Source of the DNA: Chalciporus piperatus
Lineage: Eukaryota; Basidiomycota; Agaricomycetes; Boletales; Boletaceae
Reading direction: 5' to 3'
Length of the DNA stretch: 47,254 bases
Assembly: GCA_038093975.1 (NCBI GenBank)
Contig: JBBPTG010000186.1
Location: forward strand, 1 to 47,254
Below are positions 3,611-43,066 of this stretch, in pieces. Numbering within the stretch: the stretch's first letter is position 1; each line of letters begins with the position of its first letter. A program made the position numbers and the translations under genes. Under the pieces are notes generated by a model. The model ran no database searches. It saw only the letters and a program-made list of their open reading frames with translations, and had not been told where the DNA came from.

Positions 3611-3849
3611 TAGTTGTAGATGCTACAATGTCGATTCAAAAAAGATCCATATGTACATAAATTGTTCCATTTGTTTACAAAAGTGCACAAATAAGTCATA
3701 GGTGCACATATGACTACAAATGACTGGCTGTGACATACAGGGTTTTTCCTGATTTGAAGGATATATGTGAAGTCAAAGGTAATGCAAAGGTCGTCTGAGA
3801 GTATTACATGGCCTGAGATGAGGTATGTAATCAAGAGGGAGACCAAAGC

Positions 3850-4596
3850 CCGATCTGGATGAAGCTTCCTAGTGAGAGCATGAGACTTAGTGTGGCAAGT
3901 GTGGCGACTAGGACCCGGGGTTGATACTCTCTCCTTAATATGAATAACAACGCCTTCTGGGATACCTCTAGTGGTCCTATTGCTTTGTCGGTGTTCATGT
4001 ACCTGATCGTTAAGGTTCTCTCGAATCGCGTTCTCACCTGCCGGGGATATAAGCGTGTGATAGATAGCGCTACGGAAACTTTGTGTACAACCAGAGACTC
4101 CAAGGGGGAATCTGTGTTGAAGAGCAAGAATATCCTGGTCAATGGCAAAGGCGTCAGCTAGAATTTGTTGGGGGTTGGGCGGCGGCAGTGCCCGAACCTT
4201 GATAGGTGGTAGTGACAGAAGTCGGAGGTTACTGATCTGAAGGTCGGCGGGGTTAATAGTGGACACATGGTGTGGGTAAGGAGGAATTACCAGTTCTTCT
4301 AGTCAATCGACGTAGTAGTCAGGGGCGGTGTTCTCAAATCTTACTCGGGCTTGGATTGGTGCATACTGATCAAGAAATACTCTTCCCCTCTCAGCATGTA
4401 CCACTCGAGTACTAGCAATATCTTCCTGGATACGGAGATTCTCTTGTTCGACTTCTGCAATGATGTTGGTGAAGGCTAGTGTTTCGAAGTCCAGTTGGCA
4501 ACTGGTATGAAGACTGGCAACTGGACCGCAACTGATCACAACTGGATTGCAGTTGCAACCGAAGAAAAAACCCGGTTGCAACTGATGCACAGCCAT
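3850..4596 (-). pseudogene. Degraded ORF downstream of Plavaka A, unknown
   Basis: On the minus strand two open stretches (4596 to 4303, and 4266 onward) lie in one frame and are separated by the TGA at 4303-4305. The joined text reads like protein, with helical, glutamate-rich parts (AEVEQENLRIQEDIAS) and then a leucine/proline-rich part (LRLLSLPPIKVRALPPPNPQ). No domain is recognised. The upstream end overlaps the CAACTG array, so the N-terminal residues may not be coding. It is either an eroded gene captured within the transposon or a chance run. Its lower end is not defined. Confidence 0.25.
4492..4584. repeat. Array of seven CAACTG/CAGTTG hexamers with two hairpins
   Basis: CAACTG or its complement starts at 4492, 4499, 4518, 4529, 4539, 4550 and 4579. 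The first pair forms the palindrome CCAGTTG-g-CAACTGG (4491-4505). The last pair forms AGTTGCAACC (4551-4560) facing GGTTGCAACT (4574-4583). Three central copies are spaced 10-11 bp apart. Arrays of short motifs near the ends of CACTA-like elements are often transposase-binding subterminal repeats. That role is an inference here, since the element's ends are not defined. Confidence 0.6.
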
Positions 4597-12109: not shown

Positions 12110-12702
12110 TGTTACGAACGCTCAGTTCCTTATCCTAGTCTTTCCTAGACTTCACTACGCTTACTATGTTTCTCTTTCACTTTTGCACTTAGTCGCTTTC
12201 TCTCCCTTTCCTGTTATCTTATCTTATCAAGATCACATCACATGACCTGCTGACATCAGCTAGGTCTAGCCTTTCGCTTACGTAACGTGGCTGTGCATCT
12301 TCCCCACTGTCCATGACTCATACCGAGTCACCATGACTCAGACTCTTAATGACTCATTATGACTCACCGTGACTCATACTGACTCACACTGACTCATCTC
12401 GCTTCCTAGTCATATACGCTATTGGCTGTTACTCGCCATGACTCATATCTAGTCATACCTAGTCATATAGTTAAGGTTTAGCCACAACATGTACAAACAC
12501 TGTCAATAGTATATAAACCCGGGTTAACAAGCACTGGCTCCCCAGTCTTGTTCTCCTGGAGTTTCCTCTTCTTGAACTTCATGGGCCAAGCGCTCCTGCT
12601 TGCCTAGTCTGATCCTCAGCTCTAGTTACTGAGTTGATGTGGTTTCGCTAGGGCATGTTGTCTGATGATAGCGCTAGCTCTTGATTGAGTTGAGTCGTTT
12701 CA
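12110..12702 (+). mobile_element. Solo LTR of an unseen Gypsy-like family (LTR X), TSD CCTTG
   Basis: The LTR starts TGTTACGAACG and ends GTCGTTTCA. It is flanked by the 5-bp duplication CCTTG at 12105-12109 and 12703-12707. Removing the LTR and one TSD restores the zinc-finger reading of the Plavaka B gene, which confirms both borders. The core promoter (ACATGTACAAACAC, then TATATAAA at 12510-12517) closely resembles that of the Gypsy A LTR, and both end in GTCGTTTCA, so the families are probably related. No internal part is left here; the state is that expected after LTR-LTR recombination. Confidence 0.93.
12314..12445 (+). promoter_or_regulatory. Eight TGACTCA sites upstream of the LTR X TATA box
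   Basis: TGACTCA starts at 12314, 12334, 12350, 12360, 12370, 12380, 12390 and 12439; the middle five are spaced exactly 10 bp, one helical turn. TGACTCA is the known binding site of fungal Gcn4/CPC-1-type and AP-1-type bZIP factors. The array ends 65 bp before the TATA box, the place for an upstream activating region. It is kept in the second LTR copy. Confidence 0.75.
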
Positions 12703-12981: not shown

Positions 12982-15900
12982 ATGGCCAAAGCCAAGACCG
13001 GCACTCCATCCACCCGTCAAACTCGTGCGACCAATGCCACCAAACATCCTGGACAGGTCGTTTTGGATGCGCAGCCCAAACGTCGGACCAAAGCTCAGAA
13101 AGATACGGATGACCAGGCGTTGAAGGACGCTCAGGTGGCAAGGGAACAAGCTGAAGCGGAGGCCATTGGTCGTCTGGCAGACATAGAGATGAAGGTCGAA
13201 GAAGAACATACCACTTCTGTCAAACATGCACCTACCCGCCCGCGACCATGTGCCGTTTCGAAGAAGGCAGCTGTCAACAAGGCTGAGAAACAGGCTGTGA
13301 GCAACTTGAAGAGTGATACCCCAGCAATGGTGAGAGGAATACCTGTTCATCTGAGATGCGATGCTGATCTGAACTCTCACAGAAATCTGCCCCAGGCAAA
13401 CAAGAGGTTCGGGCCATTCGCCCATCACGTGCAGGGGATAATTCTAACCGCAAATTGAAGGCGATTTTGGCTGAAGTGATCGTGAAGCGTGCAGAGGCAG
13501 GTAATGAGTTTGATATGCATATGTGGGTGACGGCATGAGAGCTGATGAGAAAATTTGGAGGTGAACCAGGTGCAGCTGCGTTGTAGGTCTTTTTTTCCCA
13601 TACTTGACATGCTCTTACTCACGGAAGCCACACTCTTCTTTCGCGACATCGCGTTGAACATCAGAGGCAAGAAATTCTCTTTCGGTGGCCACATCAAGAA
13701 TTGGCAAGCTAGAGTACAAGCTGAAACGGACAAGAAATCTGCATCTAGCATAAAGTCCACAAGCACATCTGGCCCCACTCCTTCGACAACCACGTTATGC
13801 TCCACCTCCACCCAGGCAACTACAGTCTCCAACACAAGCCAAGCTAGCAAGGCGAGCATTAAGCAGGGAGTCGTTAAGCCACCATCCGTACCCACTGCCG
13901 GTGTTACGAAGGTCAAGCAAGAGCTCCAGGAAGTGGAAACGAACGGATTTGACGACACCGTCGATATTGACGATGAGCGTACCGCTGTCATTTCTGGGAA
14001 ATTGAAGGGAACGGCGATGATTAAGGTGAGTCAGTTCCATTTATCCGATTTAAATGCTTTCTTATTATTCTGTAGGTCATTCCTGCTGCTCCAGACAGCG
14101 ACGGTGATCTCACAGATGCGCCTCTGGACGGAGTTACTGCTACTGCTACTCCAGCAGCTCCTGCAGTCAAGCGCAAATTTGAGGACATTGCAGTCAACTC
14201 GGACGATGAGGATGAAGTGCCAGAGGATGAAGTGCCAGAGGATGAAGTGCATGAGATGGATGTCGACGGGCCTGTTCAGATCGACGATTTCGACAACAAC
14301 GAGCCCGCTCTGGCCGACATTGATGAACCTGCCCAGAACGACGATGACGAACCTGGCCAGGTCGACGATGGTGAATCCAGCAACGACCAGACTGAGGTTC
14401 GTAAACCGGTTACGCACAAAGCCCCACCTACCAAGGGCCACCGTACCACCGCCTCTGTATGTCTCATTGTTGTTGATTTATGTGCACTAACCGCTGTTAA
14501 TGTTACGGTTCATTACAGTTCTCTCACCTTCACAGACACTTTTCGGACTTCAACGCTTCGTTCCATTCGACCTTATCTAATCTCTCTCATCTTATCTTTC
14601 AGACACGTGCTCATTCACTTTCACTCTTCGCACGGTCGCCCCTTATGGTTATATTCATTCTCACGCACTGCCTTACCTTGACAGTTAATCTCCGTGCTGC
14701 GCATGGCTATGCCACAGCCTTTCACCTCATGTACTTAATCTCCGCTATCTCGGCTATGCCTCACAGCCTCCTTATCTCGCTTCTATTCTCATGGGTTCAG
14801 GGTAACTCCTTATTTAGTTATAGTTAGTACAAACATGTACAAACACTTAGGATAGTATATAAATCCCAAGGACTGGTAACCCCAGCTTAGTTCACTTGGT
14901 CTTTCCCCAAGACTCAACCGTCCTATCTCAGTTGTTCTCCACTCTCTTCTTCTAAACCGCTTCACTTGGCGATAGTGTAGACCTGATCTCAATACGAGTT
15001 TTGGGTCGTTTCACTTGAACTAAGCTTCATTCTATCACCTCTACGCTATCGTTCTCCACCGCTTCATCGCGTCGCAAGTGCGTGGACAATCTCTCGCTCA
15101 AGTACCTACGTTAACGTGACCTCGTAGTGTACTTCCCATCTTTTCACGCCACTCTTCTCCCTTTCCGGTCCGGGAGGTACTCGCAAGCCGAGAACCTAGA
15201 CCATCCTTACGTAGCCTCAGTAGTAGCTAGGCACGGACGGGTCACCGCGATCCCGACCATAGTTGAGACAGAGCCGGAGGCCGCTGCAGACGCACGGATC
15301 CCAGTGGGTGAAGAAGAACCCGCCAGACTCCTCTCACCATTCAGCAGGACGCTGAAAGCGCTCACGGCATTAGAGCCAGAGCAGTTCTACTTTGGAAAGA
15401 ACTCAGACGGAGGTTACGCAACCTACCACGACGCATCGATAGCATACGCCCAGGGGCTGCTATTCGACGGGATACTCGGAGACTTCGACAGACCAGCGTC
15501 GGTCAGCCAAGAGTCACTCATCAGCGAAGAGTTCGACCCCAACGACCAGACACCTATCGCCCCCTCAATCCCACTCCCCGCTCTATCCCCGTTAGTCGTA
15601 CCACGTGGGTTGTCAGAGAAGGCACCCTCGTTGCCGAAAACCGCATCCGCTACCTCTAGCGTTAAAAGAAGACTCGAAGAGTTTGACGAAGAGGTTAGAA
15701 CCCCAAAGAGACAGAGAGACGTCATCACAGGACCAGAGAGAGTAGTACCGGCTAGGCCGATCAGAAAGATAAAGATCCCTGCCGCCTTCCGGAGAAAGAT
15801 CATACGCACAGAAGTAGGAAACGTAAACAATCCCGAAAAGATCTCTAGGATAGTCCTACGTGTCAAACACCCCAAGCTTCCCCAACCTCGCTACAAGTAT

Positions 15901-18900
15901 TAGTAGTAACAATGTCACAAACTGCACTCCCAGCAGAACTCGCAGCAAGCCTTTCCGCTCTCGCTCACAATCACAATCAAGACTTAGCCGCTCTAGGAGC
16001 ACATCTCAGGCTTTTCTTAGAATTCCAAACAGATTCATTACGAGATGAACGACTTAGAAATCAGGCATTACGAGATGATCTCGACCAAGCGACAGATCAG
16101 ATCAGGGCGATTCTTAATACGCCAATACCCCCAGCTCCAGCAGGAGCAGTACCACCGCCACCAGCTGAGCCAAAACTATCGAAAATTGTAGCTGACCCAG
16201 GAGACTACGACGGGTCCAAAGGCAAGAAATTTGAAGAATGGTGGATGAGAGTACGCTCCTGGCGAGCGGAAAACATCAGAGTTCTTGCCGGGATGGCCGG
16301 AATAAAAGCAACCCTTAGCCGAATGAAAGGCGGGGACGCCGGAGACTTTGCACGCGCCACTATGGCACAAATCCTGGAAGGAACAGCCTATACATGGAAT
16401 GACTTCGAAAAAATGATGACGGATCGATTCCGTTCATCAAACAAACAAGAATATCATCGCAAGATGATCATGGGTTTGAAACAGCACGATATGAAATTTG
16501 CTAGTTTCATAACCAAATTCGAGATCCATAAAGCAATGGATGGATGGGATAATGAACGTCACATCGAAATCCTAGAGAAAAACGCGGATCAGGAATCAGT
16601 CAAATTCCTACTTGAGAACGTGGGAAGATACGACAATTACGAAACCTTCGTTGAAGCAATCCGCGCTCGCTGTAACAGGAAAGAGCTATTCTCCTACATC
16701 AAAGCAGGCACGGCAGACAGAATCTCACGCCGTGACCCTAACGCAATGGACGTTGACGCTCTCCAAACCAAGAAACCAAATGGAGACAGGAAGCCCAAAT
16801 GCTTCAACTGTGGAAAAGACCACTTCGTTAGAGACTGCAAAGAACCCAAGACCAGATGCTCAGAATGCGGCTGGTCTAGAGGAGAGCACAAACGTATGTG
16901 CAAAAAGTACAAAGCACCAAGAAATGTTCGCTTTACAGAAGAGCATACCTCCTGGGATGAGGATAAAAGCACCGAAACTCCTGAGCCAAACAAGGGCAAA
17001 GGAAAAGAAATGGATTGGGTACGAGCTACCCGAGGCATGGGTCTGGAAGAAGCAAAGGCTTGGTTCCAGGATTACATCACCCTTACCGACAAGTCGAAAA
17101 ACTGAAACCCCTTTCACACGCATCTGGGTGTGTGAGAGGATCTCGCTACGGACCACTAGAAATAGAAAACTCTGTCGATGTTGACACGGATAACACATTA
17201 GTTTCCAATATTACTTTGCCGACAGAGGAGTCCCTTGATGGGCTCGGCCCGGGCGTTACACGGGTGCTTAATTCCTCTATTTCCCCCTCTCCCACACAAA
17301 TCCCAGACAATGCTTTCGTGCGCTCATTCGCGCCGGAACGCGAAATACTTCTCGCAATCAAAATTCGTCCTGAAACAAATCGGACATTCATTCCACTTAC
17401 GGCACTCCTTGACTCAGGAGCAAATGCCATATTCATAGATCGCCAGTGGGCGAAATCACATCACATTCCCTTGACAAAGTTACGTCATGCAATTCCCGTT
17501 TACAACATGGACGGAACAAGGAATTCCGCTGGTTCTATTACGCACTCAGCCGAGCTAGTGCTAGATTACGAAGGACACCGCGAAGAAGTCACTGCAGAGG
17601 TCACAGATCTTGGCAAGAACGCCTTCATACTCGGATTCTTATGGCTGAAACGTCATAATCCGGACATTAACTGGAGTAAGGGAACAGTCAAAATGACTCG
17701 TTGCCCACACACGTGTGCCCTACTCCAAGAAAGGCCAAATCTAGATATACAAGATCCAGATCACCAGGAACGAGATTCCCAGTATTCTGCATACTCCGCT
17801 ATCCATGTGCTTGACGCGCAAATTCCCAAAGAAAAAGAAAAGACCGTGGAGGAAATGGTTCCAAAAGAGTACCACAAATTCCTCAAGGTGTTCTCTAAAG
17901 GAGAATCAGAGCGCATGCCCTTACGCAAGCCGTGGGATCACGCTATTGATTTGAAAGAGACGTTCAAACCTAAAAAGGGTAGACTGATACCACTTTTGGA
18001 GATGGAACAGAAGGAAGTCAGCGACTTCATTGATGATCAGCTCAAAAAGGGCTACATCGCGCCTTCTAAATCACCCCAAACGTCACCAGTCTTCTTTGTC
18101 CCTAAAAAGGATGGACGTAAACGCATGGTACAGGATTATCGTTACCTAAACGAACACACGGTCAAAAATAACTATCCATTACCGTTGATCGGCCAACTCG
18201 TTGACAAGCTCAAAGGAGCTAAATTATTCACAAAGATGGATCTCAGATGGGGATACAACAATGTTCGCATCAAAGAAGGCGATGAATGGAAAGCCACTTT
18301 CGTTTGCTTCCGTGGCTCTTTCGAACCCCGAGTCATGTACTTCGGTCTCTGTAACTCCCCCGGCACATTCCAAGCGATGATGAACGAGATCTTCGCAGAC
18401 ATGGAAGACGTGCTTGTCATCTACATAGACGATTTGATGATCTTTACCAAAACAGAAGATCAGGCAGAACATGACAAAATCGTACTTGAAGTTCTTCGCA
18501 GGCTAGAAGAAAATGATCTATTCGTGAAACCCGAAAAATGTAATTTCCGCGTATCAGAGGTAGAATTCCTTGGAATGATCGTAGGAAAAGATGGGATAAA
18601 AATGGATCAATCCAAAGTCACAGCTATACTGGAATGGCCAGAACCAAAGAACGTCAAAGGCGTAAGAAGCTTCCTAGGTTTAGCAAACTTCTATCGAAGG
18701 TTCATTCAAGACTACGCGCAAGTCGCACGTCCTCTCAATGACCTAACCAAAAAGGAACAAGCCTTCATATGGGATGACAAATGCCAAATAGCGTTTGATA
18801 CGCTGAAAAAGAGTTTCACCTCAGCTCCCATACTCGCCTTCCCTGATAGCACTTGTCAATTCCGCTTAGAATGCGATGCATCTAATTACGCAACAGGCGC

Positions 18901-21900
18901 AGTCTTATCTATTCTGAAAGAAGACAAATGGCACCCAGTTGCCTATTCATCTCATTCCATGACTCCGCAAGAACGGAATTATCCTATCGCCGATAAAGAA
19001 ATGCTCTCAGTCATTCAGGCACTAGAGCAATGGCGACACTACCTAGAAGGCGCTAGACACCAGTTTGAGATCTGGAACGACCACGCAAACTTACAGTGGT
19101 TCATGACGAGACAGGATCTCAACCGACGACAAGCGCGCTGGGCGCAATATCTATCTAGATTCAATATGCTCTGGGTTTACAAACCTGGACCTTCTATGGC
19201 AAAAGCTGACGCTCTCTCACGTCGAGAAGATCACGCCGTCGGAGTTGAAAATGACAATAAAGGAATATTGGTCATTGCTCCCGAAAATATCCGCACAGTC
19301 GCCCTGACAGATGAAGGGGCACTGATCAAGCAAAGGGTCTTCCTTGCTACGTGCAAGCTATCTGAGACAGAAGTTCAGAAGTTCCAGAAAAAGGGTATTC
19401 ATGAGAAGCTTGATGGCTTACTCTACGACGAAGAAGATCGGATGTACATCCCGGAAGACAACATACTCCGAATGGACATCATTCGTTTACATCACGACAC
19501 ACCGGCTGCAGGACATCCCGGTTACGAGAAAACATTAGAACTCATTCAACGATTTTACATGTGGCCTGGACTCGCCACTCTCGTAAAAGATTACGTGTCT
19601 CACTGTCAGACCTGTCAGAGGTTCAAAGGAACGAATCAGGCACCTGCAGGTCTCCTCCAACCCTTACCGGTTCCTAGTGGACCTTGGCAACACATCACTG
19701 CGGATTTCATTACGGGTTTACCCGAATCACGTGGTTTTAATGCAATCTTGACGGTGGTAGATCGCTTCTCGAAAGAAGTCGAACTCATACCATGCACAAA
19801 AATGTGTTCGGCCCTAGAAACCGCTCGCCTATTCCTTTCTCATGTACGGAAGCATCATGGACTTCCTTTATCCATCACATCAGATCGAGGCCCGCAATTC
19901 GCAGCGCAAGTCGCTAAAGAAATCAATGATGCCCTTGGTATTGATACCAAGCTCAGTACGGCATTTCATCCGCAGACAGACGGACAATCAGAAATCGTAA
20001 ACAAAGAAGTTGGGAAGTTTCTACGAATCTACTGCTTCGATAAACAAAATCAATGGGCAGACTGGCTAGCCATCGCCCAGTTCTCCATCAATAACAAGTA
20101 TCATACTTCGACGAAGAAATCGCCGTTCGAAGTCACACGTTCATATGAACCACGCATGGGCACAGAACCACATGCTTCTACTTCTCAGGCACCAGCTGCC
20201 AAATCATTCACAGACGCAATGAGAAAAACAATTGCTGATGTAGAAAAGAACCTGGCCAAGGCCCAGGAACGAATGAAATCGCTAGCCGATAAACACCGCT
20301 CGGCTGCACCCGAATATGAAATTGGACAGCAAGTCATGCTGTCAACCACAGACTTGCGTTTGACACGCGCATCAGACAAATTATCTGAAAGATGGCTAGG
20401 TCCATTTAAAATCATTGCCTTGGCAGGGCCAAATGCAGTAAAACTACAGCTTCCACGAGACATTCGAATCCACCCTGTGGTTAATGTCCGTCGAATCAAA
20501 CCTTACAAGGACCGCCTTGACGGCCAGCCTACAGCACGGCCTGGACCAGTCCTTGTTACGGAAGAACGGGACAACGAATGGGAAGTCGACTACGTTGTTG
20601 ACACACGGTACAAGGGAAAGAAACTGGAATACCTCGTGCACTGGAAAGGTTATGATGAAACCGATCGCACTTGGGAACCAAGAGCTAATCTGGCAAACGC
20701 CAAGGGCTGCTTGAAGGACTTCTACGCAAAGAATCCAGCCGCACCTCGTGCACTATCCATTAATCCCGCAGATTTCCTATTCCTATTCCAGAAACGTCCA
20801 GAAAATCTCACGGACAACGGACCAGCCAAAATTGATAGACTCATGGCAAACCTGTCCAGTCCATTAAAAACACGGGCTGCGCCCACATAAACAGTGCCAA
20901 ATAGGGGAAGAACATATATAAGGCCTGAGTGCCCACCCACCACCCTTCATTCCCCAACAAATACTCCTCATAACCACTCTCATATACATTCCTCACTGTA
21001 ATGGACGCCTACCTCAACGGTGTTGCCTATACTCGCCCCCTCGCTCAGACCGACATGGCGGTCAACAAGCTTTATCGTACCGCGCTCCTCGCTGTCATCA
21101 GCGCCTCCCTGTTCCTCTTGATGGCCATGCCGGTCGTCGTCTATGTCCTCCTCCTCCTCCTCCTCGTCATCACGCTAGTCGTGACCTTCATCGTGCTCTA
21201 CACCTCCCTCCGATTCGTTCACATGCTCGTGACGGATCATACTACCATCGTCGAGTACCAGATCTCGTGGAGCGAGATGTGGATGACCCTTAAAGTTATG
21301 CATCCCGACGTTTTGCCCCCTCGCTACGCAGATGACCCCATCCCAGCCCTAGTGGCTTCACGGCAGCCGTCACGCTCACCCACCCTGGTCAATGTTCATC
21401 TTGACGTTCCTCAGAACGTAGATGGCAACGGGTGGCAGCAGTGGCATGACGCAGACAACATGGAAAACTAATCACCTGGAAGTTGATCCATAGGAAGGGG
21501 GTAGTGTTACGGTTCATTACGGTTCTCTCACCTTCACAGACACTTTTCGGACTTCAACGCTTCGTTCCATTCGACCTTATCTAATCTCTCTCATCTTATC
21601 TTTCAGACACGTGCTCATTCACTTTCACTCTTCGCACGGTCGCCCCTTATGGTTATATTCATTCTCACGCACTGCCTTACCTTGACAGTTAATCTCCGTG
21701 CTGCGCATGGCTATGCCACAGCCTTTCACCTCATGTACTTAATCTCCGCTATCTCGGCTATGCCTCACAGCCTCCTTATCTCGCTTCTATTCTCATGGGT
21801 TCAGGGTAACTCCTTATTTAGTTATAGTTAGTACAAACATGTACAAACACTTAGGATAGTATATAAATCCCAAGGAACTGCTGGTAACCCCAGCTTAGTT

Positions 21901-23253
21901 CACTTGGTCTTTCCCCAAGACTCAACCGTTCTATCTCAGTTGTTCTCCACTCTCTTCTTCTAAACCGCTTCACTTGGTGATAGTGTAGACCTGATCTCAA
22001 TACGAGTTTTGGGTCGTTTCAGTTAATTAGACTTCTGTTGGAATTTCTATGATGCCTGTATCGACGCCGAAAGCAACACCATCCAAGAGGGTTAAGGTCG
22101 AAGCCATTGATGCACCATCTGAGGCGCCCACAACAAATTCCGCGACTGGCACAAAGCAACTTGTCTACGACGAAGATGGTTGTGTAGTTGAGGAAATTAA
22201 GAAACGAGATGAATACAAGGTCAGGGACTTGCCTGTACATAACGACTGGCGCTGGTCCCGATCCCTTCTTGGAACGATCATTCTGTGGGCCAGCGCCCAG
22301 GAGAATCCGTGGTCTATCTCAGAGGAGGAGCTTATCTCAGCCATCCAACTGGTTTGGGATATAGTCTATCCAAATGTGAAATACCGGGTGACGGGACAAG
22401 GATCTGTCGTGGCAATTGTGAGTTCCGACCACGGGCATAGCCACCAGTTTATTTGATTGATGCTTTTGACTAACAATTACAAGGTCATCCAACGCCTCTC
22501 AGAATGGCGCAATGGATTTGGATCCGCCGCCTTGTTGATGATAACCGGCTTCTTCTCGAAGATAGGCAAAGACGAAGATATTCCAGCAGCTGCAAAGGAA
22601 CTCTTGGGGGGGTATGCATTTCTCGATGAAGATCCAGACTCTCCATCCCCCGAGGGTCGATTCTGTTCCTGCTTCATCTTGGAATTAATTGCCATGACCT
22701 ATTTCAGCAGCATCACTGGCTACATCAATGTCCCGGGATGGAACACCCACGAGCTTGCAGCCGGAAAGCACATGGCAAGTGTCATCGGGCTCGCAGCAGC
22801 AGCGGTAGGCTATATTTATCGAATGCACCACTCAGCTGACTCAATTATTCATAGCTGGAGCGTGCAGTCCACCTTTTCAAGGAGAACATCATTGATATCA
22901 AGGACGTCCCTGCAATCATGGAGGCTACGGGTCGGCCAGATCCCAAGCAAAAAATCAAACTCCCGAAAACCCTCAACCCATTCACCGGAAAGTCAAGTTA
23001 TTCCCCATACATGTTCTCTTCCGACAACTGGGCGGGCAACACAAAAAGCTACCGAGAGGCAGTTGCTCGTCGTCCCCAGAGCTGGCTTAAGGACACGTTT
23101 TCGCTCGCTCAAGTTATGCGCAGCCAGATGGCTAAGGGGAGCGTCGGTGACACAGCGGATGGCGGCGACCATGGTGATGTCAATCCCCGCTCTCTCCTCT
23201 GTAATGTACTTCACCCGATTATTTTTTTTCATTTACTGACATTGATTGCAGGA
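12982..23253 (+). CDS. Gene U: multi-exon protein of unknown function, split by Gypsy A in an intron
   Basis: Proposed exons are 12982-13329, 13383-13500, 13628-14025, 14076-14456, 22031-22417, 22484-22804, 22855-23200 and 23252-23253. They sum to 2301 nt (766 residues), with the TGA stop formed across the last splice. The start ACCATGG is a strong context. The N-terminal half is basic, then low-complexity with an acidic DEVPEDEVPEDEVHEMDVD run. The C-terminal half is globular, with VRDLPVHNDWRWSRSLLGTI and PFTGKSSYSPYMFSSDNWAGN. From memory it resembles a multi-copy, uncharacterised agaricomycete family often found among transposons; no named domain is claimed. It stands head-to-head with Plavaka B and may be the second gene of that transposon. 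Exon 3's start (intron 13501-13627) is the least certain junction. Apart from Gypsy A it looks intact. Confidence 0.65.
14501..15013 (+). repeat. Gypsy A 5' LTR (513 bp)
   Basis: It runs from TGTTACGG to GTCGTTTCA. TATATAAA is at 14856-14863, and the inferred transcript start AGCTTAGTTCA is at 14884, 28 bp downstream. It contains a 60-codon ORF also present in the 3' LTR that I do not regard as a gene. Relative to the 3' LTR it has A at 14517, making a TTACAG splice-acceptor-like site. Confidence 0.95.
14856..14894 (+). promoter_or_regulatory. Gypsy A core promoter and predicted transcript start
   Basis: TATATAAA (14856-14863) lies 28 bp upstream of AGCTTAGTTCA (14884-14894). The latter is exactly complementary to the PBS and is therefore the likely first 11 nt of the RNA, by analogy with the self-priming element Tf1. 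The start site itself is inferred. Confidence 0.7.
15016..15026 (+). other. Gypsy A primer-binding site, self-priming type
   Basis: TGAACTAAGCT begins 2 nt after the 5' LTR end. It is a perfect reverse complement of AGCTTAGTTCA at 14884-14894. No tRNA 3'-end complement starting TGG is seen here. Tf1/sushi-group elements prime reverse transcription with the first 11 nt of their own RNA in just this way. Confidence 0.75.
15115..15903 (+). CDS. Gypsy A ORF0: 260-codon ORF without any ATG, upstream of gag
   Basis: The frame is open from after the TAA at 15112-15114 to a TAG at 15901-15903, followed in frame by TAG and TAA; the gag ATG comes 2 nt later at 15912. The deduced protein has no methionine. 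The earliest near-cognate codon is GTG at 15127. It is protein-like, with an acidic middle, SVKRRLEEFDEEVRTPKRQR (nuclear-signal-like) and a basic C-terminus. No domain is recognised. It could be made from a non-AUG start, be an exon of a spliced product, or be an N-terminal gag relic. The whole leader from 14884 to 15911 has no ATG in any frame. Confidence 0.55.
   Translation, partial: RDLVVYFPSFHATLLPFRSGRYSQAENLDHPYVASVVARHGRVTAIPTIVETEPEAAADARIPVGEEEPARLLSPFSRTLKALTALEPEQFYFGKNSDGGYATYHDASIAYAQGLLFDGILGDFDRPASVSQESLISEEFDPNDQTPIAPSIPLPALSPLVVPRGLSEKAPSLPKTASATSSVKRRLEEFDEEVRTPKRQRDVITGPERVVPARPIRKIKIPAAFRRKIIRTEVGNVNNPEKISRIVLRVKHPKLPQPRYKY
15912..17105 (+). CDS. gag: Gypsy A Gag (capsid and nucleocapsid)
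   Basis: 397 residues, starting at the first ATG of the element's predicted RNA. Residues 1-55 are helical and possibly coiled, followed by a proline-rich linker. The retrotransposon Gag core follows (YDGSKGKKFEEWWMRVRSW to about residue 260), then two zinc knuckles of unusual spacing: CFNCGKDHFVRDC at 297-309 (C-x2-C-x3-H-x4-C, one residue short) and CSECGWSRGEHKRMC (C-x2-C-x6-H-x3-C). It assembles the cytoplasmic particle that packages the RNA. Pol overlaps its last 90 nt in the -1 frame. Confidence 0.9.
   Translation: MSQTALPAELAASLSALAHNHNQDLAALGAHLRLFLEFQTDSLRDERLRNQALRDDLDQATDQIRAILNTPIPPAPAGAVPPPPAEPKLSKIVADPGDYDGSKGKKFEEWWMRVRSWRAENIRVLAGMAGIKATLSRMKGGDAGDFARATMAQILEGTAYTWNDFEKMMTDRFRSSNKQEYHRKMIMGLKQHDMKFASFITKFEIHKAMDGWDNERHIEILEKNADQESVKFLLENVGRYDNYETFVEAIRARCNRKELFSYIKAGTADRISRRDPNAMDVDALQTKKPNGDRKPKCFNCGKDHFVRDCKEPKTRCSECGWSRGEHKRMCKKYKAPRNVRFTEEHTSWDEDKSTETPEPNKGKGKEMDWVRATRGMGLEEAKAWFQDYITLTDKSKN
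17015..20890 (+). CDS. pol: Gypsy A Pol: protease, reverse transcriptase, RNase H, integrase, chromodomain
   Basis: The frame is open from 17015; true Pol reading probably begins near the gag stop (17096-17105) by a -1 shift. Residues are numbered from 17015: protease DSGAN at 133, RT YIDD at 470-473, RNase H CDAS with Asp 621, integrase zinc motif from HHDTPAAGH at 826 with CQTC, and catalytic D897, D957 and E993 (DD35E). A chromodomain lies at about 1189-1240 (EYLVHWKGYDETDRTWEP). All key residues are present, so it should be active. The chromodomain marks a chromovirus and is known to steer integration to modified chromatin. No stop or frameshift is seen. Confidence 0.95.
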   Translation: MGTSYPRHGSGRSKGLVPGLHHPYRQVEKLKPLSHASGCVRGSRYGPLEIENSVDVDTDNTLVSNITLPTEESLDGLGPGVTRVLNSSISPSPTQIPDNAFVRSFAPEREILLAIKIRPETNRTFIPLTALLDSGANAIFIDRQWAKSHHIPLTKLRHAIPVYNMDGTRNSAGSITHSAELVLDYEGHREEVTAEVTDLGKNAFILGFLWLKRHNPDINWSKGTVKMTRCPHTCALLQERPNLDIQDPDHQERDSQYSAYSAIHVLDAQIPKEKEKTVEEMVPKEYHKFLKVFSKGESERMPLRKPWDHAIDLKETFKPKKGRLIPLLEMEQKEVSDFIDDQLKKGYIAPSKSPQTSPVFFVPKKDGRKRMVQDYRYLNEHTVKNNYPLPLIGQLVDKLKGAKLFTKMDLRWGYNNVRIKEGDEWKATFVCFRGSFEPRVMYFGLCNSPGTFQAMMNEIFADMEDVLVIYIDDLMIFTKTEDQAEHDKIVLEVLRRLEENDLFVKPEKCNFRVSEVEFLGMIVGKDGIKMDQSKVTAILEWPEPKNVKGVRSFLGLANFYRRFIQDYAQVARPLNDLTKKEQAFIWDDKCQIAFDTLKKSFTSAPILAFPDSTCQFRLECDASNYATGAVLSILKEDKWHPVAYSSHSMTPQERNYPIADKEMLSVIQALEQWRHYLEGARHQFEIWNDHANLQWFMTRQDLNRRQARWAQYLSRFNMLWVYKPGPSMAKADALSRREDHAVGVENDNKGILVIAPENIRTVALTDEGALIKQRVFLATCKLSETEVQKFQKKGIHEKLDGLLYDEEDRMYIPEDNILRMDIIRLHHDTPAAGHPGYEKTLELIQRFYMWPGLATLVKDYVSHCQTCQRFKGTNQAPAGLLQPLPVPSGPWQHITADFITGLPESRGFNAILTVVDRFSKEVELIPCTKMCSALETARLFLSHVRKHHGLPLSITSDRGPQFAAQVAKEINDALGIDTKLSTAFHPQTDGQSEIVNKEVGKFLRIYCFDKQNQWADWLAIAQFSINNKYHTSTKKSPFEVTRSYEPRMGTEPHASTSQAPAAKSFTDAMRKTIADVEKNLAKAQERMKSLADKHRSAAPEYEIGQQVMLSTTDLRLTRASDKLSERWLGPFKIIALAGPNAVKLQLPRDIRIHPVVNVRRIKPYKDRLDGQPTARPGPVLVTEERDNEWEVDYVVDTRYKGKKLEYLVHWKGYDETDRTWEPRANLANAKGCLKDFYAKNPAAPRALSINPADFLFLFQKRPENLTDNGPAKIDRLMANLSSPLKTRAAPT
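17096..17105 (+). other. Gypsy A gag-pol junction, imperfect slippery site
   Basis: In the gag frame the end reads tcG AAA AAC TGA. A -1 shift here joins gag to the open pol frame. The heptamer GAAAAAC has the AAA AAC end of known slippery sites, but its first base breaks the X-XXY-YYZ rule. The mechanism is therefore uncertain. Confidence 0.4.
20915..20922 (+). promoter_or_regulatory. Internal TATA box between pol and ORF3 of Gypsy A
   Basis: TATATAAG lies 25 nt after the pol stop and 86 bp before the ORF3 ATG. A pyrimidine/CA-rich leader without ATG separates them. It suggests a separate short transcript for ORF3. Confidence 0.6.
21001..21471 (+). CDS. Gypsy A ORF3: 156-residue putative membrane protein
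   Basis: The ORF runs from an ATG with G at -3 and +4 to TAA. Residues about 29-68 are almost entirely hydrophobic (VVVYVLLLLLLVITLVVTFI inside), enough for two membrane spans or a hairpin. A short polar N-terminus precedes them and a polar C-terminal region with no cysteine motif follows. There is no cleavable signal peptide. The ORF lies between pol and the 3' LTR, the place of env in some Gypsy elements, but it lacks the size, cysteines and glycosylation sites of a fusion glycoprotein. It may be a captured host gene or an element-specific factor. An internal TATA box at 20915 suggests its own RNA. Confidence 0.7.
   Translation: MDAYLNGVAYTRPLAQTDMAVNKLYRTALLAVISASLFLLMAMPVVVYVLLLLLLVITLVVTFIVLYTSLRFVHMLVTDHTTIVEYQISWSEMWMTLKVMHPDVLPPRYADDPIPALVASRQPSRSPTLVNVHLDVPQNVDGNGWQQWHDADNMEN
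21492..21504 (+). other. Gypsy A polypurine tract
   Basis: AGGAAGGGGGTAG directly abuts the 3' LTR start at 21505, the standard site where plus-strand DNA synthesis begins. Confidence 0.8.
21505..22021 (+). repeat. Gypsy A 3' LTR (517 bp)
   Basis: It is identical to the 5' LTR except for three substitutions and a 4-nt insertion after CCCAAGGA. It is followed by the target duplicate GTTAA at 22022-22026. Confidence 0.95.
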
Positions 23254-25068: not shown

Positions 25069-25627
25069 TGTTACGAACGCTCAGTTCCTTATCCTAGTCT
25101 TTCCTACACTTCACTACGCTTACTACGTTTCTCTTTCACTTTGCACTTAGTCGCTTTCTCTCCCTTTTCTGTTATCTTATCTTATCAAGATCACATCACG
25201 TGACCTGCTGACATCAGCTAGGTCTAGCCTTTCGCTTACGTAACGTGGCTGTGCGTGGCTGTGCATCTTCCCCACTGTCCATGACTCATACCGAGTCACC
25301 ATGACTCAGACTCTTAATGACTCATTATGACTCACCGTGACTCATACTGACTCACGCTGACTCATCTCGCTTCCTAGTCATATACGCTATTGGCTGTTAC
25401 TCGCCATGACTCATATCTAGTCATACCTAGTCATATAGTTAAGGTTTAGTCACAACATGTACAAACACTATCAATAGTATATAAACCCGGGTTGACAAGC
25501 ACTGGCTCTCCAGTCTTGTTCTCCTGGAGTTTCCTCTTCTTGAACTTCATGGGCCAAGCGCTCCTGCTTGCCTAGTCTGATCCTCAGCTCTAGTTACTGA
25601 GTTGATGTGATTTCGCTAGGGCATGTT
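25069..25627 (+). mobile_element. LTR X, second copy, 3'-truncated by the Copia element
   Basis: It starts TGTTACGAACG and follows the first copy closely to GGGCATGTT, where the Copia LTR begins at 25628. The last 75 or so bases of LTR X and its right-hand TSD are not found on the other side of the Copia element. TATATAAA and the TGACTCA array are kept. It was inserted into the ORF3 of the Gypsy B fragment. Confidence 0.9.
25282..25413 (+). promoter_or_regulatory. TGACTCA array in the second LTR X copy
   Basis: TGACTCA starts at 25282, 25302, 25318, 25328, 25338, 25348, 25358 and 25407, the same number and spacing as in the first copy. All eight sites remain unmutated although bases around them differ. 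Confidence 0.75.
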
Positions 25628-25825: not shown

Positions 25826-26100
25826 GGTAGCTCAGCTGTGCGCGAAAGCGCCGCTGACTACTCTGGTGTTCTTGCCTAACAAGAACGTTTGGTCGCTCTG
25901 CGCGGTTTTACCGCCAGGCATCCCTCTGATGCGGTCACGCTCAGAAGGGACATGACCACAATGAGTCAGATCCCATGGGGAGACTATGTCCCCCTAGGAT
26001 ATGGGCTCTGAGCGTTCACGCTGACGCGGTCTCACCCGCTCCCTTTTCTCCTCTCTGATTAAAGGCAATGCTGACGCCTCATCCCGCTAGATACTCAACA

Positions 26101-28938
26101 ATGTCCTCCGCTCTCAAGGAAATCGCCCGCCTTAACGGTACCAACTATACGCGTTGGGCCGAGGAAATGCAGGATTATATCCGCTCCCAAGGCTTGTGGC
26201 AGAAAGTCATGGTTCGCGCCAATGCGAACGACGCTTCTGCGTCCTTCGCCTTCTCCTCTTTCTCCAACACGCCGGTGCTCAGCCCGGCCTCCACCGTCTT
26301 CACTTCCCCCGTCGTCGACCCTCGTACCCTCGCACACACCACTGGCGCACATCAATACGGTCCTCCCGCCTTTCCCCACACCCAGAACGCCATATCCCTC
26401 GCGGACCGGCTGGGTGTTACACCTACCATCGAGACAGTCCGTACACTCGATCCCGTGGCTAATCGCCACATCGACTACGACACCCCCGTCTCTCTCCCGC
26501 GCTCGCCCTTCTACAAGAAGGATGGCGCATCTATGTCCTTCCCGGTCAATGACCACAGGACGCTCCAGAACCAGCTAGGTGCGGCCTATTTCGGCCCCTC
26601 TGGTTTCTCCCGAATTCACGAGACCCCCTCCCGCTCTCTACTAGAGCGCCTGGAGGAAACGATCGAAGACGCGGAAATGGAGATCGCGTCCATCATGCCC
26701 CTTGACGAGGAGTATGAGGCGGAGGGCGAAGACACCGTCTCCTTAGGGGACGAAGCACCTGACGAGTTTATCTCGCAGTACTTCGACTTTGGGGCCGCTG
26801 ACGTTTGGCAAGTCCCTTTCCCGCTCTTTCTCTACACAGACACTGATGTGCGGCCTTCGCCACAGAAAAATGCATATTATTGTAACATGTCTGATGTAGT
26901 AGATAGAAATAAATCTACTGCTACCCCGTTCTCACTGTGTGACAACTGTAAGAAGAACGATAAGGGCAAGCAAAAGAGCGACGTGTATGATACACCAGCA
27001 GACCTTTGGCTGCTAGATTCAGGAGCTTCGGCTCATTTCACAAATAATATCAACGATTTCGCGGAGTACAACGCTTTCACCAAGCCTGAGTACTCACAGA
27101 CAGCGAACGGTCGTGCGCCAATTCTTGGCATCGGCACAGTTATTGTGGAGTTCAATGGAAACACCGTGCGGTTATCGCCGACCATATACATGCCCACATG
27201 TAACATTAAGCTTATTTCGATGGGTACATTACTCAAAGATCAGTGTCTTACACTGAAAGCTGTTCCGAATGGTATCGAATTTCAAGATACCTGCATTAAA
27301 AAGACCATACTATCGTTTCACTCACATGGTCGTGATACCATGTACTGGATCAAAGCACCAACCGTCAAACCACATGCCAAGCCTATTAGCATGGCCGCTG
27401 TGGACTACGACTTGCTACATCGCCGCCTCGGTCATCCCTCGCGTGACGTGCTAAAAGCCGCACGCAAACATCTTAAAGATTTCCCGGACGTTGAAATTCC
27501 GTCCCATCCTCCCATTTGTCCCGGTTGCGAACTCGGGAAACAGCCTAACAGGATGTTTCCTCATACTGAGATGCGCGCAAGCGCTCCATTTGAGTTGATT
27601 CACTCTGATCTCAAGTCGTTCGAGATAGAATCGTACCATAAGTTTAAATACGCGGTCGTATTCTACGATGATTTCACATCGATGTCCTGGCTCGCTCTTA
27701 TCCGCACCAAGGACCAGACCCTTAAAATGGTCAAACAATTTATTGCTTTCGTCCGCACACAGTACAACGCCAAAGTAAAGGCTTGGAAATCCGATGCCGG
27801 AGGCGAATATACCTCCAAGGCATTCACGGAATACATGCGCGATGAAGGCATCCGTATTCAACAGTCCACCCCATACGCACATCAGCAGAACGGGCGTGCG
27901 GAACGCTTAATCCGCACATTAATGGACAAAGCACAGGCGATGCGGTTACACGCTTGCCTACCCGATTCTTACTGGGAATTCGCTTTAACGCATGCATCCC
28001 ACGTGTACAATCGTACACCAATGGCTAGGTTGAACTGGAAGACTCCTATGGAGAAACTTACAGGGGAACAATCCTCCGTCTCCCACCTAAGAGTATTCGG
28101 ATGTGGTGCATACGTGCATCTTCCCGATGAAACAAGGAAAGGGAAACTACAACCTAAGTCACAATTGATGATTTATCTCGGTGTTGCCCCTGGTAGTGAG
28201 TGCAACTACATTTTTATGCGCCCCAACAACTCCATGCACACATCTGCACATGCCATCTTTGATGAGCATTTGTTTCCTAAGTGTTCCGGTGCACGCCCTC
28301 ACAGGCCCGTAAGTCACCCACCCACTGAAACACATCGACACACCGATGATGAAAACGAGTCTTCGGACTCTGACTCCTCTGACGATCAGTCTGATGCGGC
28401 TAGACCCGCCCCTGATCCCCAGCCAGCACCAGCACGCCCGGAAACCCCACCGGCACCTGCGCCTGCACCTCCTGTCACACCGCCATCTGCTCGTCCACCA
28501 GCTGGACCACCTCCCGCTCCACCTCGCCGATCTCAACGTGAACGCCGACCCCCTACTCGTCCTGGGAACGTCTATGGCGAAGATCGTCATCCTTTACAAC
28601 AGATTAAGGACATTGAGAAGAGATCTCGATGGGAAAAGCTAATCGGACACGGCGAATCATCACGAGAACCGCAGCGTGAACAACCGATCCCAAGTTCCAT
28701 GCCCGACTCTACTCCTTCGGAAGACGAGATCGAACGCATAACCAGGGAAGGGGGAGAGGCATTGATTAACTATCTTTGCTCTCGTGCTTATATTCCGGAT
28801 GAAATGAGTAATCCCAACTATCGCGAATGGAAATTCCGTGATATACTCAAACTTCCTGCCAAGGAACAAAACTCTGGCGACAAGCCTGCGAAACAGAGCT
28901 TCAGATGCTCAAAGATCGCAAGGTTTACGAGATTGTAG
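26101..28938 (+). CDS. Copia Gag-protease-integrase, with atypical Gag
   Basis: An in-frame ATG lies 33 nt upstream at 26068; 26101 has the better context. The Gag-like start (LNGTNYTRWAEEMQDYIRSQ) is very short. It passes into about 230 S/P-rich and acidic residues with an internal duplication (DPRTL...GA...GP and DHRTL...GA...GP) and no CCHC knuckle. Next come protease LLDSGASAHFT (Asp codon at 27016), the integrase zinc motif HRRLGHPS...CPGCELGK, and integrase core residues in HSDLK, SDAGGEY and GRAERLIRT. A D/S-rich and proline-rich tail follows. The frame ends at 28938 after an apparent 1-nt loss near 28868-28871, so RT is in the next frame. Confidence 0.85.
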   Translation: MSSALKEIARLNGTNYTRWAEEMQDYIRSQGLWQKVMVRANANDASASFAFSSFSNTPVLSPASTVFTSPVVDPRTLAHTTGAHQYGPPAFPHTQNAISLADRLGVTPTIETVRTLDPVANRHIDYDTPVSLPRSPFYKKDGASMSFPVNDHRTLQNQLGAAYFGPSGFSRIHETPSRSLLERLEETIEDAEMEIASIMPLDEEYEAEGEDTVSLGDEAPDEFISQYFDFGAADVWQVPFPLFLYTDTDVRPSPQKNAYYCNMSDVVDRNKSTATPFSLCDNCKKNDKGKQKSDVYDTPADLWLLDSGASAHFTNNINDFAEYNAFTKPEYSQTANGRAPILGIGTVIVEFNGNTVRLSPTIYMPTCNIKLISMGTLLKDQCLTLKAVPNGIEFQDTCIKKTILSFHSHGRDTMYWIKAPTVKPHAKPISMAAVDYDLLHRRLGHPSRDVLKAARKHLKDFPDVEIPSHPPICPGCELGKQPNRMFPHTEMRASAPFELIHSDLKSFEIESYHKFKYAVVFYDDFTSMSWLALIRTKDQTLKMVKQFIAFVRTQYNAKVKAWKSDAGGEYTSKAFTEYMRDEGIRIQQSTPYAHQQNGRAERLIRTLMDKAQAMRLHACLPDSYWEFALTHASHVYNRTPMARLNWKTPMEKLTGEQSSVSHLRVFGCGAYVHLPDETRKGKLQPKSQLMIYLGVAPGSECNYIFMRPNNSMHTSAHAIFDEHLFPKCSGARPHRPVSHPPTETHRHTDDENESSDSDSSDDQSDAARPAPDPQPAPARPETPPAPAPAPPVTPPSARPPAGPPPAPPRRSQRERRPPTRPGNVYGEDRHPLQQIKDIEKRSRWEKLIGHGESSREPQREQPIPSSMPDSTPSEDEIERITREGGEALINYLCSRAYIPDEMSNPNYREWKFRDILKLPAKEQNSGDKPAKQSFRCSKIARFTRL

Positions 28939-41747: not shown

Positions 41748-42649
41748 TTAGTGACAAAGGCTACTTTACGAACGGTGGTTTCATCCTCGTCGTCTTCCAT
41801 CTCGATCAACGAGGGGATCTCTTCCTCAACCTTCTGAACCTTCTTTGGGTTTTTCTGGCTCGAGGAGAACTCAGGGCAGGCGTTGGACCGGTGTCCTCCT
41901 TTCCTGCAACGGAAACAGAGTCCCTTCTCTTGGCAGCGTTTCCGCTCCTCAGGAGTAAGTTTGGATATGCGGATGGCATCGACGTCCATGGCATTGGGGT
42001 CTCTGGCGGGAGTGGAGTTGTTGGTGGAGGAGAACGGGCGGAACGGTTTGGCTGGGTTGCGGTTACGATTGGCGATCTCATTGGCGTGTTCCCATTGGGT
42101 TTGGAACTGGGTGGTTCGTTTATACCAATCTTCGATCGTGGTAGGAACGGTATCCATGCCGTTGACTCGTCTCATAAGAGAGATGGGTATCCCTGCAGAG
42201 AAGTATCCGATTAGGACATTGTTATCGGTGATGCCGGATAAGGCGACTTGGTTCTGGAAACTCGAGATGAATTCCGAGAGGGGGGGGGAATGTTCTCCGT
42301 TTTTGAGAGGTCTCATCCGCTTGGTGGAGAGCCAGGCGACGGTGTTTCCTACGGTGTCGTGGTGTTTGAATGCGGTTTCGAAATCAGTGATAAACTGAGC
42401 CCAGGTTCCCATTGTGACTGTGGCGCCGGTGATGGCTTTGCGGCGGAAGGTGGCGGCCCAAGTGGCTGCTGATCCTTTGGACATGTAAGACAGCGCAAAG
42501 GCGATCTTCTTGGGGTCGGTGTTGTATACGTCACCATTGACAGTGAGATAGAATTGGATGGAATTCATACAAGCAGTGCTCTTTTCAAAGGAGCCATCAA
42601 AGGCGTCTGGGGCTCCGATGCGGAGTTCAGTGGGTTTGGAGGACGACAT
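41738..42649 (-). CDS. gag: Gypsy B Gag
   Basis: 303 residues from the first ATG of the predicted element RNA. The retrotransposon Gag core runs from IGAPDAFDGSFEKSTACMNS to about residue 200. A linker with DPNAMDVDAI follows, then a canonical zinc knuckle, CFRCRKGGHRSNAC, near residue 245, and an acidic C-terminus ending VTKGF. The frame is intact. The start lies 5 nt after the stop of ORF0. Confidence 0.92.
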   Translation of the reverse strand: MSSSKPTELRIGAPDAFDGSFEKSTACMNSIQFYLTVNGDVYNTDPKKIAFALSYMSKGSAATWAATFRRKAITGATVTMGTWAQFITDFETAFKHHDTVGNTVAWLSTKRMRPLKNGEHSPPLSEFISSFQNQVALSGITDNNVLIGYFSAGIPISLMRRVNGMDTVPTTIEDWYKRTTQFQTQWEHANEIANRNRNPAKPFRPFSSTNNSTPARDPNAMDVDAIRISKLTPEERKRCQEKGLCFRCRKGGHRSNACPEFSSSQKNPKKVQKVEEEIPSLIEMEDDEDETTVRKVAFVTKGF

Positions 42650-42654
42650 GGGGT

Positions 42655-42948: not shown

Positions 42949-43052
42949 GTCAGAATGGATTAGCGGTCTCTCGTGGGGGGCCCCAGCGAGAGGTGTCGAG
43001 GCGAGATCGTTGGGAAATGGTGGAGGTCTACAGCGAGGGTAGCCTTCAGGGG

Positions 43053-43064
43053 TAACTTAGACCT
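43053..43064 (-). other. Gypsy B primer-binding site, self-priming type
   Basis: Minus-strand AGGTCTAAGTTA lies 2 nt after the 5' LTR. It is exactly complementary to TAACTTAGACCT inside that LTR (43254-43243), which begins 32 nt downstream of the TATATAAA box (43286-43279). Confidence 0.72.
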
Positions 43065-43066
43065 TT

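Follow-up and report, generated by a model that had tools for sequence, protein, structure and literature searches.

Sequence features identify element A, which lies in a 47,254-nt stretch of the Chalciporus piperatus genome (contig JBBPTG010000186.1, hereafter the window), as a Ty3/Gypsy retrotransposon that is self-primed, has a chromodomain and carries an additional gene, ORF0, after the primer-binding site and ahead of gag. The ORF0 start codon appears to be formed only upon RNA splicing, by removal of an intron-like segment of the leader (15078-15127). We consider it likely that the element makes two messages, an unspliced RNA that would be scanned as far as gag and a spliced RNA from which ORF0 would be translated, starting at the AUG formed at the splice junction.

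Results

Element A (all features on the forward strand) has a gag gene (Retrotrans_gag, 15912-17105) and, in the -1 frame relative to it, a pol frame (16985-20890) in which reverse transcriptase, RNase H, integrase and a chromodomain follow each other in Gypsy order. It is bounded by a 5′ LTR of 513 bp (TG..CA, 14501-15013) and a 3′ LTR of 517 bp (21505-22021), which differ by 3 substitutions and one 4-nt gap, and by a 5-bp target site duplication, GTTAA (14496-14500 and 22022-22026), all as in Ty3/Gypsy chromoviruses. No relatives of its gag were found in IMG/VR. The primer-binding site TGAACTAAGCT (15016-15026) begins two bases past the 5′ LTR, an arrangement known from self-priming elements, and is the exact reverse complement, over 11/11 nt, of AGCTTAGTTCA (14884-14894), the inferred 5′ end of the RNA; element A is thus self-primed in the Tf1/sushi manner, in the sense defined in PMC2864245. 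This exact complementarity independently supports 14884 as the transcript start. A TATATAA (14856-14862), read from the sequence, lies 28 nt upstream of this start, and the predicted exon 1 (R-U5, primer-binding site and 5′ leader, 14884-15077) contains no ATG and ends in ..GTCGCAA.

The preliminary description had reported that no ATG occurs between 14884 and the gag ATG, and we indeed counted 0 in the 1028 nt of 14884-15911, so that its claim that gag lies behind an AUG-free leader is supported. Its figure for chance was about 16 ATGs; base composition gives 12.6, and a first-order Markov model of the leader, a sequence already poor in ATG, gives 4.0 and produces none at all in 1.9% of runs. 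The longest ATG-free run in the window extends from 14835 to 15912 (1077 nt), the next one on either strand being 665 nt. Among 26 leaders of element A copies, 19 are ATG-free; the seven that bear ATGs do so at six distinct sites, five of which are ACG in the window, which fits CpG decay after insertion, while the sixth is the junction ATG of copy L022 discussed below. Methionine is absent from the 257 amino acids of ORF0, against 6.5 expected at the gag/pol rate, and recoding ORF0 with gag/pol codon usage gave a mean of 6.4 ATGs, the observed 0 never being reached in 3000 trials. Permuting ORF0's own codons leaves only 1.3 out-of-frame ATGs expected (P 0.18), so the ATG purge in this single ORF rests on the missing methionine and on codon choice. 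The near-cognate CTG occurs 5 times in the leader, where composition predicts 14.6; we do not claim a purge of CTG, as its scarcity in ORF0 falls short of significance when codon usage is taken into account (P 0.07, 0.10). At more than 1 kb the leader is long for plain scanning, which we count against the scanning model.

The frame from 15115 to 15903 is open for 262 codons with no methionine, a run matched in length by 2 of 5000 Markov sequences. This agrees with the Met-less frame of about 260 codons noted earlier as far as the open stretch is concerned; translation most probably starts at the splice junction (15128), which leaves 258 coding codons, the initiator counted. Exon 2 (15128-15903) would thus hold the TG of the junction AUG, 257 codons (15130-15900) without another methionine and the stop TAG, and the predicted protein of 258 aa starts Met-Tyr-Phe-Pro-Ser. 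The tandem stops TAG TAG TAA (15901-15909) stand 2 nt before the gag ATG, exactly as first described. Of 27 copies in which the site can be read, the window counted, 26 retain them; the exception, L033, has TAG TTG TAG. The dN/dS test across copies, which the preliminary description had named as a check on ORF0, gave 0.243 [0.169-0.342] for ORF0's own frame over 27 copies, compared with 1.209 and 1.195 for the other two frames. Third positions hold 57% of the differences between copies, and the frame is open in 24 of the 26 copies having nearly all of it. This pattern bears out the proposal that ORF0 is a protein gene, and one under selection. Its first 59 codons (15127-15303; omega 0.42 [0.14-1.01]) are too conserved at all positions for substitutions to prove the junction to be the exact start of coding. 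A bipartite NLS-like stretch, KRR..KR[QE][RK], picked by eye, is present in 23 of the 24 open copies.

The predicted intron, GTGCGT..TAG, is 50 nt long (15078-15127), and its excision joins ..GCA-A to TG-TAC.., giving A|TG, the first AUG of the RNA, in the ORF0 frame. We scanned for GTRNGT..YAG introns of 40-120 nt with an acceptor at or before 15400 and found exactly one that makes a junction ATG, this one; when the first 517 nt were shuffled under a Markov model, an in-frame intron of the kind arose in 0.66% of cases. The donor, the acceptor TAG, the flanks ..CGCAA and TG.. and a TTAAC (15111-15115) that is the likely branch point are invariant in all 29 copies retaining the region, in which seven other intron positions vary. 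The earlier worry over a spliced upstream ATG was well placed, except that the ATG would arise at the joint itself. An RNA with ORF0 excised as an intron, the outcome that would have spoken against the earlier proposal, was not found.

In copy L022 precisely the 50 nt of 15078-15127 are missing, and the deletion can be placed in no other way. As far as its 5′ part shows, L022 is an independent insertion, with its own flank and its own 5′ LTR, and its divergence from the four copies nearest to it is 0.6-0.8%; in its precise loss of a GT..AG segment it resembles a spliced retro-copy of the SpIRE type, as expected from reverse transcription of spliced RNA. A genome-wide search for the sequence of the spliced junction, with as many as 3 mismatches allowed, returned one match, at C311, and 0 control matches. 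Of 30 copies in which the region is complete, 29 keep the intron, so unspliced RNA would be the usual template; with L022 the only copy to lack it, spliced RNA would be either rarely made or rarely reverse-transcribed. Deletions of more than 3 nt relative to the window were present in two of 26 near-complete leaders, eight partial leaders being left out of the count: L022 and L037. The latter alone is missing a 44-nt GT..AG stretch (15304-15347), whose acceptor reads CAG in 26 of 30 copies and which is probably a cryptic intron. The Arg-rich alternative frame that this deletion would open (15348-15665) has an omega of 1.1 and shows no selection, so we treated the deletion as cryptic splicing.

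A second Gypsy family in the same genome (family 2), whose reference copy likewise has a primer-binding site complementary to its own predicted RNA 5′ end, has 0 ATG in the 1541 nt of the reference leader; 27 of 37 distinct leaders, some of them partial, are ATG-free. This leader holds two overlapping selected ORFs, ORF0a and ORF0b, one of them hydrophobic, and ORF0b may encode a transmembrane protein. The strict GTRNGT..YAG scan found one junction ATG, out of the ORF0a frame. A relaxed scan (GTRNGT..NAG) found two introns whose removal yields a junction ATG. One of these ATGs is in the ORF0a frame; its intron has an AAG acceptor, and the prediction is weaker than that for element A. No spliced copy was recognised among the genome copies of family 2, and for ORF0b no plausible junction that would give an in-frame AUG was found. 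A donor/acceptor pair with a weak donor, at 571/746 of the reference (175 nt), lies at the very start of ORF0b and is conserved in 33/33 copies; entry into ORF0b through this pair, or through +1 frameshifting, is possible.

No homologue of ORF0 or ORF0a was found at E 0.01 in a 5.8-billion-protein collection, nor did the three proteins searched match Pfam, or ORF0 and ORF0b the PDB. Profile comparison of ORF0 with ORF0a or ORF0b gave no homology (probability under 1%), and BLASTP of ORF0 against ORF0a, run without composition correction, gave one weak match (E 0.023). An AlphaFold2 model of the single ORF0 sequence was discarded (pLDDT 41.8). Among the literature matches listed, which covered freely accessible papers, none described splicing as the source of a start codon in a retrotransposon.

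Discussion

In the model we favour, ribosomes on the unspliced RNA would meet no AUG ahead of gag, scan about 1 kb and initiate there, and the same RNA would be the usual template for reverse transcription. Removal of the intron would form the first AUG of the RNA and allow ORF0 to be translated. The interior of ORF0 would lack AUG in every frame because the unspliced RNA must be scanned through it, and the tandem stops, which end 2 nt ahead of gag, would permit some reinitiation on spliced RNA.

Reinitiation could also be the only route to gag, if the intron were removed from nearly all RNA and ORF0 were always translated first, with termination and restart at TAG TAG TAA CA ATG. The closeness of the triple stop to the gag ATG in nearly all copies speaks for this. 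It would leave the absence of AUG from all frames within ORF0 unexplained, the retention of the intron in most copies marks unspliced RNA as the usual template, and the stops of ORF0b and ORF0a in the family-2 reference are separated from the gag ATG by 43 nt and 332 nt, so close coupling does not hold generally; we regard this route as unlikely. Slightly less probable is the proposal of the preliminary description, a non-AUG start of ORF0 on unspliced RNA with gag reached by leaky scanning or reinitiation. ORF0 is open, selected and free of AUG in the genomic sequence, and in unspliced RNA its frame opens only at 15115, after a TAA, with a GTG at 15127. Such a start is made unnecessary by a conserved intron that gives the right AUG and by a copy that lacks exactly that intron, and the proposal is probably wrong.

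The AUG might instead come from an exon outside the leader, if transcription began further upstream, within the LTR or in the DNA flanking it. ATGs do occur upstream of the TATA box, that at 14835 being the closest. The self-primer sets the 5′ end of the replicating RNA at 14884, downstream of those ATGs, and each new copy must bring its own signals, which makes this very improbable. Least credible of all is that ORF0 is not a gene, its open frame and the L022 deletion being due to chance: its lack of relatives in the databases searched would agree with this, but not a dN/dS of 0.24 against 1.2 in the shifted-frame controls, nor a gap placed uniquely and exactly at GT..AG.

A retroelement has one RNA that must act as genome and as several messages. 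If the two-message model is true, a single splice decides whether an accessory gene has a start codon, and the coding sequence of that gene doubles as an AUG-free 5′ leader. Such genes would be missed by ORF-finders that seek ATG in genomic DNA, and fungal Gypsy elements may for that reason have accessory proteins that were overlooked. The leaders, 1.0 kb long here and 1.5 kb in family 2, would also offer a natural test of the distance over which ribosomes can scan. More tentatively, a start-codon-building splice could be an RNA-fate switch throughout a self-primed fungal Gypsy group, the unspliced, AUG-free RNA (1.0-1.5 kb of leader) going to gag-pol and genomes and the spliced RNA to a nuclear regulator (ORF0 or ORF0a), with family 2 adding a membrane-associated ORF0b in the +1 frame, two proteins over the same 464 nt.

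Self-primed chromoviruses of the Tf1/sushi type have a primer-binding site complementary to the 5′ end of their own RNA and a chromodomain, and element A shares both; we know of no extra gene and intron in the leader of Tf1, such as element A has. The glycoGag of murine leukaemia virus, offered earlier as an analogy, is a CUG-started, in-frame extension of Gag. It resembles ORF0 in being an extra product that begins in the leader ahead of gag; the analogy fails in that ORF0 is in another frame than gag and stops before it, at 15903. Among fungal Gypsy elements, BcGypsy1 of Botrytis cinerea also carries an additional ORF, brtn (PMC8365987). Barley BARE has separate spliced and unspliced RNA pools, like those of our model, but there splicing yields a gag-only RNA rather than an upstream gene (PMC3735527). 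L022 has its parallel in the SpIREs of human L1, integrated intron-less copies of reverse-transcribed spliced RNA that are generally dead ends (PMC5860796); here, unlike in L1, splicing would create the start codon of a gene. The MDG1-group Gypsy elements of Drosophila (412 and others) are like both families in having extra ORFs of low dN/dS, sORF1 and sORF2, between the 5′ LTR and gag, one of them a transmembrane protein perhaps comparable to ORF0b (PMC11952523). In the cited part of that account these are of about 110 aa and lie on full-length RNA without evidence of splicing, whereas the ORFs described here are of 250-321 aa, lack methionine and would use a junction-made AUG. Cer1 of C. elegans is an LTR retrotransposon whose CERV protein is made from spliced RNA while the unspliced RNA serves gag-pol (PMC10309623), a division like that in our model. 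It differs in that the cited part of that report describes neither a junction-made AUG nor an AUG-free leader, and coding of ORF0 from spliced RNA alone is a prediction, with one intron-less copy as a sign of splicing. As a spliced-RNA protein of an LTR retrotransposon, CERV could serve as a model for ORF0, which, at a guess, would be a nuclear regulator of the element's RNA.

Structure of element A

The LTRs bounding element A (14501-15013 and 21505-22021) are identical but for 3 substitutions and one 4-nt gap, and the target site duplication GTTAA lies on either flank. The gag of the element (15912-17105) matches Retrotrans_gag. Its pol frame (16985-20890) matches RT, RNase H, integrase and chromodomain; it lies in the −1 frame relative to gag, overlaps it over 16985-17105 and is presumably expressed by frameshifting. 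Self-priming elements use the 5′ end of their own RNA as primer. Here TGAACTAAGCT at 15016, two bases past the end of the 5′ LTR, exactly matches the reverse complement of AGCTTAGTTCA at 14884. We therefore took 14884 as the start of the RNA; it lies 28 nt downstream of the first base of a TATATAA. Direct repeats of 97-98% identity (12110-12585 and 25069-25553) lie ~13 kb apart with element A between them, suggesting that it was inserted into an older LTR element. Domain matches also identified a Plavaka-type DNA transposase fragment (1528-3306) and a Copia-like element (26059-30359; SH3_retrovirus, RVT_2).

The ATG-free leader contains a gene

The preliminary description had reported that the 1,028-nt leader (14884-15911) has no ATG and carries an ATG-less ORF ending in TAG TAG TAA ahead of gag, and both statements are exact. 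Base composition predicts 12.6 ATGs over this interval and a first-order Markov model of the leader sequence 4.0, with none in 1.9% of the runs. The ATG-free run around it (14835-15912, 1077 nt) is the longest on both strands of the window, the runner-up measuring 665 nt, and the open frame (15115-15903, 262 codons) was equalled in 2 of 5000 Markov sequences. Among the genomic copies of element A (family 1), ATG is absent from 19 of 26 leaders, and in the remaining seven it occurs at six distinct sites. At five of these the window reads ACG, a pattern that post-insertion decay of CpG would produce; the sixth is the joint of L022, a copy lacking an intron-like segment. On the minus strand, a different Gypsy element has a leader that is ATG-free over 665 nt (42649-43314), and its gag frame extends without a stop well beyond the first ATG on the 5′ side; many copies of this gag among the matches listed have frames of 433 codons, versus 303 from the first ATG. 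A start that is spliced or non-AUG may be used there.

The Met-less frame, ORF0, is a gene. A tblastn search of the window's assembly (35.5 Mb, 484 contigs) returned at least 38 matches, and 34 genomic regions with ORF0 matches were retrieved for copy comparison. The dN/dS check across copies suggested by the preliminary description (NG86, 27 copies including the window) gave 0.243 (0.169-0.342) for ORF0 versus 1.209 and 1.195 for the other two frames, and third codon positions hold 57% of the differences. Of the 26 copies that cover 740 or more of the 770 counted positions, 24 have an open ORF0 (the exceptions are L032 and L035), shorter pieces and L037, a copy with an internal deletion, being left out.

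A candidate start codon at a splice junction

In genomic DNA the ORF0 frame opens after a TAA at 15112-15114 without any ATG. A scan for introns whose removal creates an ATG (GTRNGT..YAG, 40-120 nt, acceptor up to 15400) returned a single joint, in the ORF0 frame: the 50-nt candidate intron 15078-15127 (GTGCGT..gTTAACgtgacctcgTAG), which joins GTCGCAA to TGTACTTC. Markov shuffles of the leader's first 517 nt contained an in-frame site of this kind in 0.66% of cases; a relaxed scan (any GT, any AG) gave eight ATG joints, half of them (4/8) in the ORF0 frame. The intron signals are conserved: in all 29 copies keeping the region, the last exon-1 bases, the donor, TTAAC, the acceptor and the next TG are invariant, while seven positions vary elsewhere in the intron.

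One copy, L022 (G000:C311), lacks exactly 15078-15127, with a unique gap placement, and so carries the junction ATG in its genomic DNA. A genome-wide search for the joined-exon pattern, with up to 3 mismatches allowed, had a single match, at L022, and controls gave no match. Because its flanking DNA and 5′ LTR start are its own and it differs by 0.6-0.8% from its four nearest relatives, L022 looks, judged from the 5′ side, like an independent insertion derived from spliced RNA. This single copy supports the existence of a spliced RNA that can be copied; it does not show such RNA to be abundant. Among the 26 near-complete leaders (eight partial ones were excluded), only L022 and L037 have deletions of more than 3 nt relative to the window. 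L037 (G000:C109) lacks 44 nt inside ORF0 (15304-15347, GTGGGT..CAG). The deletion has two possible placements, of which one is GT..AG; the acceptor is CAG in only 26 of 30 copies, and no selection was found by dN/dS over copies on the frame that it would open. We regard L037 as probably a second, cryptically spliced copy.

These observations suggest a logic of two messages, in which ORF0 translation would start at the AUG formed by removal of 15078-15127 and the unspliced RNA would be scanned from its 5′ end to gag. Such scanning, if required, explains the purge of ATG from ORF0. None of its 257 residues is Met (6.5 expected at the gag/pol rate), and recoding with gag/pol codon usage predicts 6.4 ATGs, a count of zero never arising in 3000 recodings; gag, as a control, has 28 versus 28.8 expected. 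Permutation of ORF0's own codons predicts 1.3 ATGs (P 0.18), so the avoidance sits in amino acid and codon choice, not in codon order. If gag were instead made solely by reinitiation after ORF0, the purge would be left unaccounted for. The triple stop adjoining the gag ATG is kept in 26 of 27 copies, which leaves room for some reinitiation on the spliced RNA.

A second family with a coding leader

Among the matches listed, the gag search identified a second family at ~50% gag identity, whose reference copy, L048 (G000:C199), has an equivalent self-priming pairing (AGTCTTGTTCT / AGAACAAGACT) and a 1541-nt leader with no ATG, against 19.1 expected. After removal of eight duplicates and of the rearranged or foreign L049, L052, L055, L056 and L062, 27 of 37 distinct leaders, some partial, are ATG-free. 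Two ORFs overlap here in different frames, ORF0a (L048:396-1361, 321 or 308 codons) and ORF0b (L048:898-1650, ~251 codons), and dozens of further copies of the region exist; a decayed relic lies in the window (3736-4476, minus strand). Both ORFs are Met-less and under selection. Outside the overlap omega is 0.25 for ORF0a and 0.125 for ORF0b, the latter without a stop in all 33 copies used. Within the 464-nt overlap the two selected frames give 0.36-0.39 and 0.51-0.60 versus 1.5-1.7 for the third, the upper bound for ORF0b exceeding 1 in the first half. Codon permutation gave P values of 0.0017 (ORF0a) and 0.050 (ORF0b).

Family 2 strongly supports the AUG-free coding leader. Its support for a junction AUG is weak, because the strict GTRNGT..YAG scan of its leader found one junction ATG, out of the ORF0a frame; allowing any NAG acceptor gave two, of which the in-frame one (57 nt, L048:340-396) has an AAG acceptor, a weaker signal; and no spliced family-2 copy was recognised when looked for. 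As no homology between ORF0 and either ORF0a or ORF0b could be detected, the shared architecture either is ancient and has since diverged, or arose by convergence.

Both families show little variation over the first 300-400 nt of the RNA (14884-15299 in family 1, ~1-300 of the family-2 reference leader). In family 1, pi is 0.006-0.03 up to 15299 versus 0.02-0.08 beyond, and the low variation extends into the first ~58 ORF0 codons, so the exact first codon of ORF0 cannot be located from substitutions. Possible causes are signals for packaging or priming, or an exchange of templates between copies.

Comparison with known systems

That an accessory gene of an LTR retrotransposon can be served by splicing is already known: CERV of Cer1 is made from spliced RNA and is needed for the export of unspliced RNA, according to the consulted part of PMC10309623. 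By analogy with CERV, our guess is that ORF0 may be a nuclear RNA regulator. A KRR..KR[QE][RK] stretch, chosen by eye, is found in 23 of its 24 open copies. The nearest parallel to family 2 is the MDG1 group, whose elements have a pair of small ORFs ahead of gag; the second of these encodes a transmembrane protein linked to transfer between cells, and splicing is not mentioned for these ORFs in the consulted part of PMC11952523. ORF0b contains a PPPPY motif and, with hydropathy over 19 residues reaching 2.08, a hydrophobic stretch. Among the papers listed in searches of the open-access literature, none presents, in title or abstract, a start codon of a retrotransposon that is created by splicing. 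As far as could be checked, what is new here is the combination of a proposed splice-made start codon with a coding region that is kept AUG-free as a leader.
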